Assembly: GCA_029099845.1 (NCBI GenBank)
Contig: JAQXOT010000014.1
Span: 72,879-111,348, forward strand
Direction of reading: 5' to 3'
Origin: a bacterium
GTDB lineage: Bacteria; Bacillota_I; Bacilli_A; RF39; UBA660
Length of the DNA stretch: 38,470 nt
A program made the translations under genes and the position numbers. A model generated the notes under the pieces. The model was not told the DNA's origin, searched no databases, and worked only from the letters and a program-made list of their open reading frames with translations. Below, piece by piece: positions 20,363 through 30,590 of the stretch. The number at the start of each line of letters is the position of its first letter. Position 1 is the first letter of the stretch.

Positions 20363-20491
20363 TTAAGCGATTCGGAAAGCTGGGGAAACGCCCAAATCAA
20401 AACTAGTATTCGCAACCATACACACCCCAGTATTATGGCTACAAAAAAAACAAGTTGGCCACAAAGGTGGAGCAGAGCGCAACCACCACCA
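20363..20491 (-). other. Compositionally anomalous 3' end of the prepilin gene (candidate variable region)
   Basis: The last 43 codons, from TGG-TGG-TGG to TAA, contain by hand count 19 A in 129 bases (15%) and 60 G+C (47%), against a gene that is otherwise A-rich and low in GC. Codons rare in the window occur together: CGC, GGG, GCG, TCC, CGA. The 3' end, with GGCGTTTCCCCAGCTTTC, is GC-rich. This pattern fits the adenine-targeted variable region and fixed 3' IMH of a diversity-generating retroelement, but no template is visible here. An imperfect hairpin (AATATCC, A5, GGGAATATT) follows the stop. Confidence 0.5.
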
Positions 20492-21628
20492 AACTTCTGC
20501 ACCATTATATTCTTTTATAACTTCGCTATAATTACTTGATGTAGTATTATTTTTATTATAATAATCTAATTGTCTTGTTTGATTTTGAGATGTATCATTA
20601 TTACCATCATTCCAAATTTCTTTTGGTGATAATAAATATAATTTATCAACTGATGTAAAATTAGTTTCGTTTACTGTTGGACCATGTCCTGATATAACTG
20701 TTGTTTCAGATATTGAACCATACATATAGTAAGGCATTTCTTCCACTATTTCGTTATTCACATACGTTCTTAATTTGCTTGCAGGCCATCCGCCTAGATT
20801 CGTATCGGCAGAATTCATATTATGTTTAGTAATTATATCGACAAACTCCACCACAAACCCACAAGCAGTTTGAGAAAAACCTTCTTGTGAACATTCACTA
20901 GGTGTTGTCGTATTTGCAACTCTTACTGTATGTGTTCCAAATTCTCCCATATCTACTTCTTTTGTATCTCCTACTTGATATGGATAATTTCCTGACCTTA
21001 CCGCTCCAGCAATTCTAAGCCAGCTATCTGTTGCAAAAGATATTCCTTTTACTGTTTTAGTTCCACCTTCAACACTACATGTTGTTACTTCTTCATCTAT
21101 AAATGGATCTACCATAATTGAATTTAATTTTTCTTCTTCATTCAAATTATCTAAATTCATCAACATATCACCACGTACCAATTTATCTGATTCCTTTGGA
21201 CTTCCCAAATTATCATAAATACCATGAGTTCCATCTGATAAAGCTACATAAAATTTTGTTACTTTTTTATTACTTTTGGTTGTAACATTTACCCTTACAT
21301 AACCCTTAACATCACGATTACCCCAAGATGATTTTCCGCCTTGTCCAAGTAAAGATGACACATTACTACTGCTTGTATCGATTAAAACATAATAATTTCC
21401 ATTATCCATACCAGATGCATATGTATTCGTATTTCCACACATCAAATTATCAGAAGTCCACTGTGTTCTAGCTGCATTGGCATATGACTTTGCAATATCA
21501 ACAAAAGTATCTTTTCTTGAGTTTTCTATTACTCTAGATATTGCAGGAATTGCGACTAACATTAAAATACCCATAATTACTATTACCGCTAGTAATTCTA
21601 TTAAAGTGAAACCATTTTTCTTTTTCAT
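20363..21628 (-). CDS. Type IV prepilin-like protein with C-terminal DUF6273-like domain
   Basis: A 421-residue surface protein. MKKKNGFTLIELLAVIVIMG is a class III prepilin leader, cleaved after Gly with E5 of the mature form retained, followed by the long hydrophobic helix. Residues 60-190 form a pilin globular domain with Cys pairs. From about 200 the sequence has SWLRIAG, GDTKEVDMGEFGTHTVRVA, DKLYLLSPKEIW and TRQLDYYNK, then WWWLRSAPP and GVSPAFRIA at the end, a DUF6273-like domain (C-type-lectin-like arrangement, inferred). The segment between WWWLRS and GVSPAF is the variable loop in relatives as I recall them. AGGTG lies five bases before the ATG. The promoter has an unusual poly-G spacer. 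No pilus assembly genes are in the window. Confidence 0.8.
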   Translation of the reverse strand: MKKKNGFTLIELLAVIVIMGILMLVAIPAISRVIENSRKDTFVDIAKSYANAARTQWTSDNLMCGNTNTYASGMDNGNYYVLIDTSSSNVSSLLGQGGKSSWGNRDVKGYVRVNVTTKSNKKVTKFYVALSDGTHGIYDNLGSPKESDKLVRGDMLMNLDNLNEEEKLNSIMVDPFIDEEVTTCSVEGGTKTVKGISFATDSWLRIAGAVRSGNYPYQVGDTKEVDMGEFGTHTVRVANTTTPSECSQEGFSQTACGFVVEFVDIITKHNMNSADTNLGGWPASKLRTYVNNEIVEEMPYYMYGSISETTVISGHGPTVNETNFTSVDKLYLLSPKEIWNDGNNDTSQNQTRQLDYYNKNNTTSSNYSEVIKEYNGAEVWWWLRSAPPLWPTCFFCSHNTGVCMVANTSFDLGVSPAFRIA

Positions 21629-21671: not shown

Positions 21672-21703
21672 AGTATACCCCCCCTCCCACGTTTTTTTGT
21701 CAA
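21672..21703 (-). promoter_or_regulatory. Promoter of the prepilin with G7 and A7 tracts in the spacer
   Basis: On the minus strand -35 TTGACA (21703-21698), then a spacer holding an A-run and GTGGGA followed by seven G, then TATACT (21677-21672). The spacer is 20 nt, against the optimum of 17. Loss of two or three bases from either run would give good spacing. Homopolymer tracts in this position are the classical arrangement for phase-variable transcription. Confidence 0.6.
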
Positions 21704-21728: not shown

Positions 21729-21759
21729 CAAAAAAGATTAGAACATTTCTCTAATCTTT
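21729..21759 (-). terminator. Terminator of the M13 peptidase/ABC operon
   Basis: On the minus strand AAAGATTAGA, a 7-base loop, TCTAATCTTTTTTG. A perfect ten-pair stem plus T-run, starting at the stop codon. Confidence 0.88.
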
Positions 21760-23686
21760 ACCATACTCTTAGTCTTTCATCTTCTGGAATATACATTTCA
21801 TTATCTTTCGAAACATTATATACTTCATAGAATAAGTCTGTTGATGATAGTGTGGCATTAACACGATATTTATTAGGAGCATGAGTATCAATTAGTAATA
21901 ATAACTTGGTATATTCTTCTCTAGATTTTTCAGCCCATAAGGAAGCAAAACTGGCATACATAGAACGGATTTCTTGACTGCTTGCCTTTTTTTCTTTTGC
22001 AATACCACTGATACAAGAAACGGCTCCTAAATCCGCAATATTTTCAGAGATCGTTAATTCACCATTGATATAATTTCCTGATATTACTTCATATTTATTA
22101 TAGTAATCTATTACCTCTTTTTGGATCTTTTCATAATTACTTCTATCTTCATCTGTCCACCAATTTGCTAAATTTCCCAACTCATCAAACTTGGAACCAT
22201 TTGCATCAAAGGCATGAGTTACTTCATGGGCAATGATCATTCCTATTGTGCCTAAATTTTCATAATATGTTTTTTCTAGATCAACAAAGTTGACTGAAGC
22301 AGCTGGAAAATTAATAGAATTATCTTGAGGATTATAGTAAGCATTAACTGTTATTTGATCCATTAATGGTATTTTCTCATTCGTTAACAAGCTTTGATAT
22401 TCATAATCTGATATTGTTTTCATTATTGAAAGAATATTTTCAATTAATGTTTTATCACTTGTTAAATTATAGTTAGCAGAATATTTGGGATACGTTTCTG
22501 TTAAGCCAATATTTATAGTCATATTTTTTACTTTATTAATAGCCTTTGTTTTAGTTTCTGGACTTAACCAAGTCAAATTAGAAATATTGCTTTCATAATA
22601 ATTTAGAATGTCATTAATCATATCTAAAATATACTTTTTAGAATTGGCATCTAAATACTGACTTGCATATAATTCGTCTATATCATATTGAAATAAATTA
22701 GTAATTACCGTTTGGGCATTATATTCAAGGTCTAAATCTTTTTCTATTCCTAATTGCTCATTTTCAAAATCATTAGCAATTTTAGCATAATCCTCAGTTA
22801 AATAGTTACAATAGCTTTGCAATATTTTTAGTTTTACGCTTTCTTTTAGTGTTTCAACATTTTCTTCCGTTAAAGAATTGTTAATAGCTATATAATTACC
22901 ACTATCTAAAATACTTAATTTAATATTATCTGGGACCGTTATGAAGTATGAATCTGGTAATTTATTATAAATTTTTTTAAGTTCTTCTTTGGTGATGATG
23001 TTATACATATTTTCTATATCATTAAAGTATTCTGATGGTTTAGACTGTTTTGCTATTTCAGTATAATAATCAGTTATATTTTTAGATATTTCTCTAGCTT
23101 GCTTTTTATCATAACCATATTGTTTTAGGAGTTTTATTCCATATTGTTTTATTAGTGCTCTTTGTGCTAGATAATCATCAGCTATATAATAATCACTTGG
23201 TGCTGAAAAATCAAAAGTTATTGGTGATAAATATAACATATTTTTTGAAGTATCTTTAAAATCACTCATTATGTTTTTGTTTATAAAAATGGGAATAAAC
23301 AACTCATTTTCTACAATAATAGCATTATTGATAAAATCGTTAATATTTGTTGATTGATCAATTAAATTTAAATAATAATTTATAGTTGATAGACCATTAT
23401 TATTTCTGGTATTTATATCAATTAGTTGATTGTATAAAATATTAATATTTGGGTTTTCTGCAGTAGCTATTTTTTCTTTAAATACTAAATCAACTTGCTT
23501 ATCTACTTCATCTTGAATTTCTGTAAAGGTACTGATAGTAAATTCATCATCTTCTAAAACATACTCATCTATTTTATCTTTATTAATATAAGTATAGTAA
23601 TCTGTTGTTAATTGAGATTGAGATAAGCTACAACCTGTTACTATGACAATTAATAATACTAATAATATTTTCTTTATTTTTTTCAT
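21758..23686 (-). CDS. M13-family (neprilysin-like) zinc metallopeptidase lipoprotein
   Basis: A 642-residue exported peptidase. MKKIKKILLVLLIVIVTGC is a lipoprotein signal (lipobox VTGC), so the enzyme is membrane-tethered outside the cell. Zinc site: HEVTH (the HExxH motif) followed by FDANGSKFDELGN, with the third ligand Glu in ENIADLGA. The substrate-binding NAYYNPQ motif lies upstream, as in neprilysin and PepO. Length matches the family (about 630-700). The C-terminus is normally CxxW; here it ends RLRVW without the Cys. It follows an ABC permease by one base and shares its terminator, suggesting that peptide processing or turnover is tied to that exporter. Confidence 0.92.
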   Translation of the reverse strand: MKKIKKILLVLLIVIVTGCSLSQSQLTTDYYTYINKDKIDEYVLEDDEFTISTFTEIQDEVDKQVDLVFKEKIATAENPNINILYNQLIDINTRNNNGLSTINYYLNLIDQSTNINDFINNAIIVENELFIPIFINKNIMSDFKDTSKNMLYLSPITFDFSAPSDYYIADDYLAQRALIKQYGIKLLKQYGYDKKQAREISKNITDYYTEIAKQSKPSEYFNDIENMYNIITKEELKKIYNKLPDSYFITVPDNIKLSILDSGNYIAINNSLTEENVETLKESVKLKILQSYCNYLTEDYAKIANDFENEQLGIEKDLDLEYNAQTVITNLFQYDIDELYASQYLDANSKKYILDMINDILNYYESNISNLTWLSPETKTKAINKVKNMTINIGLTETYPKYSANYNLTSDKTLIENILSIMKTISDYEYQSLLTNEKIPLMDQITVNAYYNPQDNSINFPAASVNFVDLEKTYYENLGTIGMIIAHEVTHAFDANGSKFDELGNLANWWTDEDRSNYEKIQKEVIDYYNKYEVISGNYINGELTISENIADLGAVSCISGIAKEKKASSQEIRSMYASFASLWAEKSREEYTKLLLLIDTHAPNKYRVNATLSSTDLFYEVYNVSKDNEMYIPEDERLRVW

Positions 23687-23687
23687 A

Positions 23688-24851
23688 CTAAGCACCAAAT
23701 AGAACTTTCTCTGATTTGAATTTTTTTATTAATATATATAGCAATATGACTATGTATATTATAGTTGATAATATTGTTAAAAATAAGTTTAAGTAACTGA
23801 TATTTCCTGAATATAAATCCATTAAAATTGTAGTGTGACTTAAAATTGGAATTATATAGTATGTTGCGGATATTGGGATATTTAAAAACGAAATTAACAT
23901 TGGCATGATACAAACAACTTGTAATATTTGACCTGCGGCTTGAGCTTCTTTATAGGTTTTTGCTGATGAAGTTAATAGTATTGCAATGGCTGCTATTAAA
24001 AAAGCAGCTATAATGCATATTATTATTCCCCAAATTATAGCTAATAGACTTATACTGAAACCTTTGTATACTTCAAACATGTTAGTAGCAATAGCAAAGC
24101 TTGCTATAGTAATTATAAAGCCTATTATTGATGATATAAGTCCAATAATTGCTGTTGCTAAATATTTTCCAACTATTAATTCTTTTGTAGTTACAGGAAG
24201 GGTTAAAATCGTTTCTAAAGTGCCATTTTCTTTTTCGGCGGCAATTGATGAGGTAGCCATATTTACGGCAGCTAAGGCAATTGCCATAATAATATAGGTA
24301 AATGACACATTCATTACTAGTTCAATCATAAAGCCTTCAGTTGATAACTCTTTTCCATCAGTTGTTTTTAATTCATAATTAATATTTCCGTAAGCTACTT
24401 CTGGATCAATATCTTCACCTTTTATATATAGATCACCTAAATATTTATTATAAGCTTCTAAGTATTCAGCAGCATAGCTTGCAGCCTGAGAATCCATAAT
24501 ATTCTTGCTTGAATATATGGTATATAAGTTTTTATCAGAATCATAATATATATATGTTTCAATACTGCCTTTATCATAGGCTTTTTTCATTTCTTCAAGA
24601 TTTTTATATTGAGTTGGATTTAAAGATAATTCTGACATTATACTTTTTTCAGTACTATTTGGTTCATAATTTATACCTAATTGATATTTGGTATTGTCTG
24701 TTCCCATAAGGGAATCTTCCATAAAGCCAAAAAAGAAAATGAAGGCGGCAATTATAAAAGGAAAGCAAAATATCATAAAGATTGTTTTTTTATCTCTCAT
24801 AATTGATCTTAATTCTTTTTTGATGGTAATTATAATATTACTTTTCTTCAT
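23688..24851 (-). CDS. ABC-2 type permease (NatB-like)
   Basis: A 387-residue permease. It has an N-terminal cytoplasmic segment (IKKELRSIMRDKKT), span 1 (about 20-42), a large external domain (45-175), then five spans ending near residue 375. EKENGTLETILTLPVTTKEL is the ABC-2 coupling segment characteristic of NatB and related exporters. The start ATG overlaps the ATPase stop by 14 bases, with AGGAGG upstream, and the next gene starts one base after this stop. Na+ export is the classical NatAB role. With a peptidase in the same operon, peptide or stress-related export is equally possible. Confidence 0.85.
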   Translation of the reverse strand: MKKSNIIITIKKELRSIMRDKKTIFMIFCFPFIIAAFIFFFGFMEDSLMGTDNTKYQLGINYEPNSTEKSIMSELSLNPTQYKNLEEMKKAYDKGSIETYIYYDSDKNLYTIYSSKNIMDSQAASYAAEYLEAYNKYLGDLYIKGEDIDPEVAYGNINYELKTTDGKELSTEGFMIELVMNVSFTYIIMAIALAAVNMATSSIAAEKENGTLETILTLPVTTKELIVGKYLATAIIGLISSIIGFIITIASFAIATNMFEVYKGFSISLLAIIWGIIICIIAAFLIAAIAILLTSSAKTYKEAQAAGQILQVVCIMPMLISFLNIPISATYYIIPILSHTTILMDLYSGNISYLNLFLTILSTIIYIVILLYILIKKFKSEKVLFGA

Positions 24852-28904: not shown

Positions 28905-30590
28905 TTATTTGCTATATGTATATTGAGTATATCCACCACAACAGCCTTCAGAACAATTACAAGAGTATGAGCAAGGATGTCCACCTTTACCACAGCAACC
29001 ACCACAATTTGAACCATGGCATGTGTCACAATGCGTGCAAGATTTGGTACAGATATATTTTGAATTAACTTTATATGTATATGAAGAAGTGGTTGACTGT
29101 CCTACAGTATTAGTACATGTTACGGTGTGTTTTAGACTTGATGGAGATAACGTTTTAGTTGCTCCAGATGAAATTGCTATTGGTGCACCTGTATTTCCAT
29201 CTACGCAAGTAGCTGTTGATGTTGAACCACTAAGACTAAACGTAATTACCGGTGGCTTTAGCGAAACTTTGAAATTTCCAGTGTTACAAGTATTGGTATT
29301 ACCAGCTGCATCTCTAACAAAACCATACCAAGTTATGCCATTTGTCGCTCCTTGGGTTTCACTTGATATACTATTATATGTAGCTGTACTATTATTTACC
29401 AATCCGTATGATACACTAGACTTTTGGACAATTCCAGGATTGCTAACATTTAATGTTAGTGTTACAACTGATGTATATGTTGTTGGTCCACCAGTACCAG
29501 ACTTTGTTATTGAACAAGTTGGTGCTGTTTTATCAATCATAATATTGTTTTGGGCTATTTCCGAGCAGTTGTCAGCATAGTCACAAGCCCTTATTTCAAC
29601 AATCTCATTTCTTTCTTCAGTAAAAGCGGTGGTAGTAAAATTATTAGTTGCTGATTGTGAATATGTATGCCATACGTTTTCACTATTAGGATAACGATAT
29701 TGATAATATCGAATTCCTGATATGTTATCTGATGATGTTGCTTTAATTACATAGCTACCAGCGTTAACATAACTTGCTCCAGCCCAAACACCATTTTTAC
29801 TGTTTTCTAGAACTGGAGTATTTGGAGCAACGCTATCAAATCTTAACACTTCTGATGACCAAGCATCTTGAGCGAATCTTCCGCGAACATCTACTACTTC
29901 ATCACCATCAATAAATAAGTAATATTCTCCATTCATGTTAGAAACTGTAGTAGTGAATGTAAGTGTAGTTTCCCCTGACTCATTGCGAAAATTATATTGA
30001 GTAAGGTCTGTTGGAAGCGTATTTTTATCTGTTGACCAGCCATATTTGATACCTATATTAGGATTGAATCCTTCTTTAGCACTTAGCTTTATTGCAATTT
30101 TCTTGGTCTTTGACCAATTATTACTTCCTTCTAAATTTTCATAACTTATTCTAATTGTAGGTAAATCAGTCATAGCATTCTCGCTACATTTAGAAAGAAC
30201 TTTATTATATACTTCTTTACCATCTTTGGTACAATATAAAGAAATTGCATAAGTATATTTATTGGCATTTCTTTCTACGTGGACAAATGTTTTATCATTG
30301 TCGCAAGTTATTCCATTGGTTTCATAATTTTTAATTAACGTTTTAGCACTTAAATCTTGAAATGATATGTCATAGCAACCATTTCCAGTTAAGCCAAACA
30401 TATCTTCCGAATAAGAATCAACGTAAAGTTTTCCCGCATCTTCAAGAGTATCTGAATATGACTCAAATTTTTTATTTTGGTTTCTAGCCTGTAGTTGTTG
30501 TACTCCTGGTAATGCAAGAACTGTTATAATACCCATAATTGTAATTACAACTAGTAATTCAATCAGTGTAAATCCTCTTTTGTCTTTCAT
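28905..30590 (-). CDS. Giant type IV prepilin-like protein with a 12-Cys tail
   Basis: A 561-residue exported protein. MKDKRGFTLIELLVVITIMG is a prepilin leader with Glu at +5, followed by the N-terminal helix and a pilin domain with Cys residues (to about 140). Two or three beta-sandwich repeats follow: one around RISYENLEGS, one after DSVAPNTPVLENS, one after DKTAPTCSITKSG, resembling bacterial Ig-like/surface repeats. The final 50 residues hold 12 Cys, including CTHCDTC, CGGCCGKGG and CNCSEGCC. Normal pseudopilins are 100-200 residues, so this is a long tip-type or scaffold pilin. GAGGTGAG precedes the ATG. Downstream genes encode Cys-pair and thioredoxin-like membrane proteins. Confidence 0.82.
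   Translation of the reverse strand: MKDKRGFTLIELLVVITIMGIITVLALPGVQQLQARNQNKKFESYSDTLEDAGKLYVDSYSEDMFGLTGNGCYDISFQDLSAKTLIKNYETNGITCDNDKTFVHVERNANKYTYAISLYCTKDGKEVYNKVLSKCSENAMTDLPTIRISYENLEGSNNWSKTKKIAIKLSAKEGFNPNIGIKYGWSTDKNTLPTDLTQYNFRNESGETTLTFTTTVSNMNGEYYLFIDGDEVVDVRGRFAQDAWSSEVLRFDSVAPNTPVLENSKNGVWAGASYVNAGSYVIKATSSDNISGIRYYQYRYPNSENVWHTYSQSATNNFTTTAFTEERNEIVEIRACDYADNCSEIAQNNIMIDKTAPTCSITKSGTGGPTTYTSVVTLTLNVSNPGIVQKSSVSYGLVNNSTATYNSISSETQGATNGITWYGFVRDAAGNTNTCNTGNFKVSLKPPVITFSLSGSTSTATCVDGNTGAPIAISSGATKTLSPSSLKHTVTCTNTVGQSTTSSYTYKVNSKYICTKSCTHCDTCHGSNCGGCCGKGGHPCSYSCNCSEGCCGGYTQYTYSK

Follow-up and report, generated by a model that had tools for sequence, protein, structure and literature searches.

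A prepilin gene promoter with a G tract in its spacer as a probable member of a large class of putatively phase-variable promoters in uncultured Bacilli

The window analyzed here, a stretch of 38,470 nt from an uncultured member of the Bacilli, contains a promoter that carries a G tract in its spacer and precedes a type IV prepilin-like gene. We consider it probable that this element belongs to a large, lineage-wide class of poly-G spacer promoters that are phase-variable through slipped-strand events, as in Neisseria porA. In this class, a consensus -35 element, a G tract of usually 8-12 nt on the non-template strand and a consensus -10 element precede genes of surface proteins that are secreted or anchored in the membrane. 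In the proposed mechanism, slippage during replication would alter the number of Gs and, with it, the distance between the -35 and -10 elements, which in turn would alter the efficiency of RNA polymerase initiation. Each surface gene would be switched stochastically and independently of the others. The window copy (G3-A-G7, with a spacer of 20 nt) would probably be a slow-switching or partly locked member of the class, and a paralog on contig C16 of the same genome sits at 17 nt.

The window promoter is located on the minus strand, between its prepilin gene and an M13-family peptidase gene that precedes it on that strand (21758..23698, minus) and is not part of the switch. A -35 element of perfect consensus, TTGACA (21698..21703), is followed by the 20-nt spacer AAAAAACGTGGGAGGGGGGG (21678..21697) and by the -10 element TATACT (21672..21677), exactly as the first-pass annotation had described. 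The spacer reads A6-C-GT-GGG-A-G7, that is, an A run (A7 if the last A of TTGACA is counted) and an interrupted G tract; the G7 run (21678..21684), the proposed slippage site, directly abuts the -10 element. Since our consensus promoter scan covers spacers of 16-18 nt, this promoter was absent from its output. The gene driven lies 43 nt beyond TATACT (ATG at 21628; 20363..21628, minus) and encodes 421 aa, with an N-terminal N_methyl domain (PF07963, E = 1.3e-8) and a C-terminal DUF6273 domain (PF19789). Its methylation motif GFTLIELL followed by a hydrophobic helix identifies it as a type IV prepilin-like protein. The arrangement is thus of the porA type in two respects, with a homopolymer between recognizable -35 and -10 elements (TTGACA-20-TATACT) and a downstream gene for a surface-exposed type of protein. 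The window contains a second prepilin-like gene (28905-30590, minus; N_methyl, 561 aa, cysteine-rich tail), which is not preceded by a G-tract promoter.

The G7 run had also been flagged as very rare in such AT-rich DNA. Taken alone, this argument was weak, as the 1.14-Mb assembly contains three G7 runs (and no G8 run) against about 2.3 G7 runs expected from its composition, numbers with which a chance placement of one G7 in a spacer would be compatible. What is non-random about the window G7 is its location in the spacer, not the run itself: the pattern TTGACA N2-14 G5 N0-10 TATA matched a single site in the window and none in 100 dinucleotide-preserving shuffles of it. The exact window-promoter pattern had no match in genome_contigs or viral_contigs.

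We have then searched the family for promoters of the type TTGACA-N-G5-N-TATA. They were found in 126 of the 386 family genomes, with up to 32 per genome, and a reversed-pattern control was near zero. When the family sites were read individually, TTGACA and a TATAAT-like box were seen to enclose runs of G7-G13, with a ribosome-binding site and a gene of an exported protein coming next. This search refuted chance as an explanation of the promoter class. Given that the same architecture recurs in a paralog and in other prepilin promoters as well, it is also highly improbable that the window G7 falls in its spacer by accident.

The association between G runs and promoters also held in the opposite direction. 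When G8 or longer runs were sampled in ten family genomes regardless of promoters, 30 of the 32 were found within -35/-10 promoters, and one more adjoined a TTGACA at a contig edge. Such runs, of which about 0.4 per genome are expected from composition, numbered 19-54 in the richest genomes. Tract length in the family had its mode at 9-10, and in 33 of 75 cases the G run abutted the -10 element. Loss of MutS could be ruled out as the cause of the tracts, for MutS1 was present, over the cut-off, in 48 of the 50 genomes tested, including the source genome. Of the 54 family tracts checked for their position (genomes G285, G361, G218, G280, G282 and G059), 20 were no more than 500 nt away from the end of a contig, against 2.3 expected. 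This excess fits repeated or polymorphic sequence breaking the assemblies, two causes that a count does not separate.

The genes behind these promoters are mostly of the surface type. Based on a hydrophobicity test, a crude stand-in for signal-peptide prediction, an N-terminal export or anchor segment was present in 72 of 82 downstream genes in the family, compared with 27 of 82 background genes from loci gathered for unrelated reasons (p = 4e-13). Outside the family, among the matches listed, such a segment was found in 74% of 98 first downstream genes; the figures were 30% for background open reading frames and 14% for 21 genes that followed non-G promoters at these loci. G-tract promoters stood directly before prepilin genes at five other loci (L042, L063, L281, L298 and L329). 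Other targets in the family included a large group of proteins with a signal-like segment ending in SYA, GYA or TFA, lipoproteins and anchored proteins.

The pattern is not confined to the family. Among GTDB species genomes, at least 120 stretches carried it, distributed over Bacilli, many Clostridia, Saccharibacteria, Selenomonadaceae and others. Outside the family, among the matches listed, the spacers of the G promoters ranged from 14 to 20 nt (SD 1.7), whereas those of non-G promoters in the same loci were held sharply at 17 nt (SD 0.8; Levene p = 3e-9). For the family alone, the modal spacer was 19 nt and the spread was not significantly wider than that of non-G promoters (p = 0.11).

We have compared tract lengths between promoters with closely similar surroundings. 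Among 25 promoter pairs matched by their flanks (at least 80% identical), tract length differed in 14, and genome G285 carries three copies with 100% identity over the compared flanks and either G11 or G12; all of these lengths derive from short-read assemblies and are uncertain by about one base. What has been observed directly is how the promoters are built, how enriched they are, that they are linked to surface genes, that their spacers spread in length and that copies with identical flanks differ in tract length. They suggest that tract length would also vary within populations and that such variation would affect transcription.

The spacer data can be read in another way. G runs have an A-like helix geometry, and with such a run a spacer of about 18-20 nt could become the optimum, making these promoters constitutive and free of switching. 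The family mode of 19 rather than 17 nt and the frequent contact of the G run with the -10 element would agree with this. We nevertheless regard a purely structural role as quite unlikely, because it leaves unexplained the concentration of the promoters before surface genes, the length differences between identical copies and the spacers of 15-16 nt. The earlier proposal of a phase-variable poly-G spacer was strongly supported for the class, by architecture, surface genes, broad spacers and length differences between flank-matched copies.

One feature of the class goes beyond spacing. The poly-C equivalent was essentially absent (three matches in 11 family genomes), so that G is found almost exclusively on the non-template strand, a bias that would not be needed if spacing were all that mattered. 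This points to a constraint that goes beyond spacing, for example slippage coupled to transcription, a promoter property peculiar to G or a factor that binds the tract. The strand bias is also the best support for a different view, in which a trans-acting regulator (CsoR/RcnR/FrmR-like or other) binds the G tract as its operator and controls a surface-protein regulon, length differences being tolerated noise. A genuine example of a G-rich operator between -35 and -10 elements was indeed recovered by the pattern in some of the same genomes, since the gene at one of the matches, L083, belongs to the CsoR family (PF02583) and has the site CCCCTAGGGG in its own promoter spacer. That site, however, is palindromic, a C4-TA-G4 dyad, whereas the promoters of the surface genes carry a plain G run without a C arm. 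The window promoter is no exception, and a CsoR-like operator was excluded there. Moreover, a spacer regulated by a factor would be expected to be held at 17 nt, yet it spans 14-20 nt among the matches listed, and copies that are otherwise identical have drifted apart in tract length. Control of these genes by a regulator of this kind thus appears unlikely, and slippage in the spacer remains our preferred reading of the class.

The window copy itself departs from the class in several ways. Its G7 is shorter than the family mode and is part of an interrupted tract (G3-A-G7), whereas frequent slippage would call for an uninterrupted run of about 8 or more and the relatives mostly have G8-G12. 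The sequence GT-GGG-A-GGGGGGG looks like a tract of the G11 type in which one G has changed to A, because in relatives this core is uninterrupted, as in genome G334 (TTGACAAAAACGT-G11-TATAAT). The same genome contains two more genes with both the prepilin and the DUF6273 domain, L002 on contig C16 and L003 on contig C15. The L002 promoter, TTGACA-AAAAAGTGGGAGGGGGA-TATACT, has a spacer of 17 nt and is clearly related to that of the window, with the interrupting A common to both. In comparison with the window, it has lost one A and one C and carries G5-A in place of G7, so that the change from 20 to 17 nt is more than one clean slippage step. The promoter region of L003 had no G tract, and the two genus mates sampled had no poly-G promoter of this pattern.

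These observations leave room for the window promoter being a locked relic, i.e., a copy fixed as a weak 20-nt promoter within a class that is otherwise phase-variable, with the C16 paralog fixed at 17 nt. The interruption GTGGGAGGGGG, present in both paralogs, would then be older than their split and retained since, and both the short G7 and the lack of a G tract in the third paralog and in the genus mates are consistent with such fixation. Against it, neither the A run nor the G run is the same in the window and C16 copies, which indicates that length has changed after the split, and the window G7 still abuts the -10 element. We treat complete locking as a serious contender, while leaning somewhat against it. 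The presence of MutS1 should limit slippage by mismatch repair, and the window promoter, whose tract is short and contains an interrupting A, may be semi-locked and switch only rarely. That it still switches often seems rather doubtful on the same sequence features. Hence, a phase-variable switch is plausible at the window copy, whose length comparison was limited to one diverged paralog (17 vs. 20 nt); in related genomes, tract length varied for the class at large, whereas the genus mates offered no such promoter for comparison.

Insertion sequences were found beside a number of G tracts. A sequence upstream of the C16 paralog promoter, CTGTCCACTTTAAGCTTACCACTACA, was considered as a conserved regulatory element and rejected, since its relatives adjoin IS3-type transposase genes; we read it as an insertion sequence end. 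An IS3-type end (TGTCTACTTTAAGTTTACCACTACA, with an rve-domain transposase inside) is located a short distance upstream of several poly-G promoters (L002:1465-1500; L088-L117). A G7 or longer run was present within 160 nt outside of 15 of 28 such ends, compared with 14 of 774 background stretches, for which a target preference of the element or a safe site common to both might account. Some G9-G10 tracts beside the ends lie outside TTGACA promoters (L101, L103 and L104), and in L103, and apparently in L101, the tract is placed just within the start of a reading frame. The position of these last tracts suggests that frameshift-type switches may also occur in the family.

The pilin had further been proposed to vary in sequence at its C-terminus. 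The L002 and L003 proteins are nearly identical over their first 280 residues and then strongly diverged with indels, which identifies the DUF6273 domain as the variable part. Divergence among paralogs was therefore borne out. Active diversification did not find support: the source genome (91% complete) and two genus mates yielded no reverse transcriptase (RVT_1), and nothing resembling a template copy of the region that encodes the C-terminus was found beyond weak chance matches. As the variation moreover extends over about 180 residues and includes indels, we do not claim a diversity-generating retroelement behind it. Reverse transcriptases of the diversity-generating type, with YMDD and IGxxxSQ motifs, are present in several other genera of the family (L360-L365). 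Retroelement-driven diversification is thus possible in the wider lineage and unsupported in the source genome.

The type of switch proposed here is already known. In Neisseria meningitidis, the level of PorA transcription depends on how many Gs lie between the -10 and -35 elements and is altered by the gain or loss of a single G (PMC3899988), and for meningococcal FetA a 17-bp spacer gives consistently high expression (PMC4577077). The window promoter resembles porA in having a homopolymeric G tract in the sigma70-type promoter spacer of a surface-protein gene. It differs in that its tract is interrupted, and the setting differs as well, porA being one locus of a Gram-negative pathogen, whereas up to about 30 such promoters per genome were found here in uncultured Bacilli. 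Another parallel is the gut commensal Bifidobacterium breve, where a G tract of about 10-12 nt in a sortase-dependent pilus gene acts as a frameshift switch. Slippage was measured for that tract by Penno et al., who found mixtures of G11 and G12 in one culture and a published G11 to be mostly G12 (PMC9187656). Both systems combine a gut commensal, a pilus gene and a G tract; the characterized B. breve tract, however, is in a coding sequence and concerns sortase-dependent pili, while the one described here is in a promoter spacer and concerns a type IV-like prepilin. The B. breve study mentions further G tracts in promoter spacers in one sentence, beyond which we found no description of a poly-G spacer promoter class in the open-access literature searched (PMC9187656). 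The taxon and the scale are therefore new as far as that literature shows.

A low-GC relative, Mycoplasma hyorhinis, has a multigene family of surface lipoproteins, vlp, with a poly-A tract in the promoter of each gene. The promoters described here differ from the vlp system in having poly-G rather than poly-A tracts and in serving many unrelated surface proteins instead of a single lipoprotein family.

For the lineage as a whole, we lean cautiously toward a contingency system of uncultured gut Bacilli and other bacteria, including many Clostridia. In such a system, a genome would have tens of surface genes that are unrelated to one another, every one under its own poly-G spacer promoter, and together these would generate a combinatorially variable surface; the G-only strand bias would reflect a constraint beyond spacing. 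It is this lineage-wide use of G-only spacer tracts that we consider the part worth following, and because the switches are recognizable from sequence, their variation is directly testable in existing long-read metagenomes. If true, entire lineages of gut bacteria with small genomes, so far uncultured, would vary their pili, matrix-like and lipoprotein-type proteins in the manner of porA at tens of loci per genome, which would have a bearing on phage resistance, host interaction and strain-level metagenomics.
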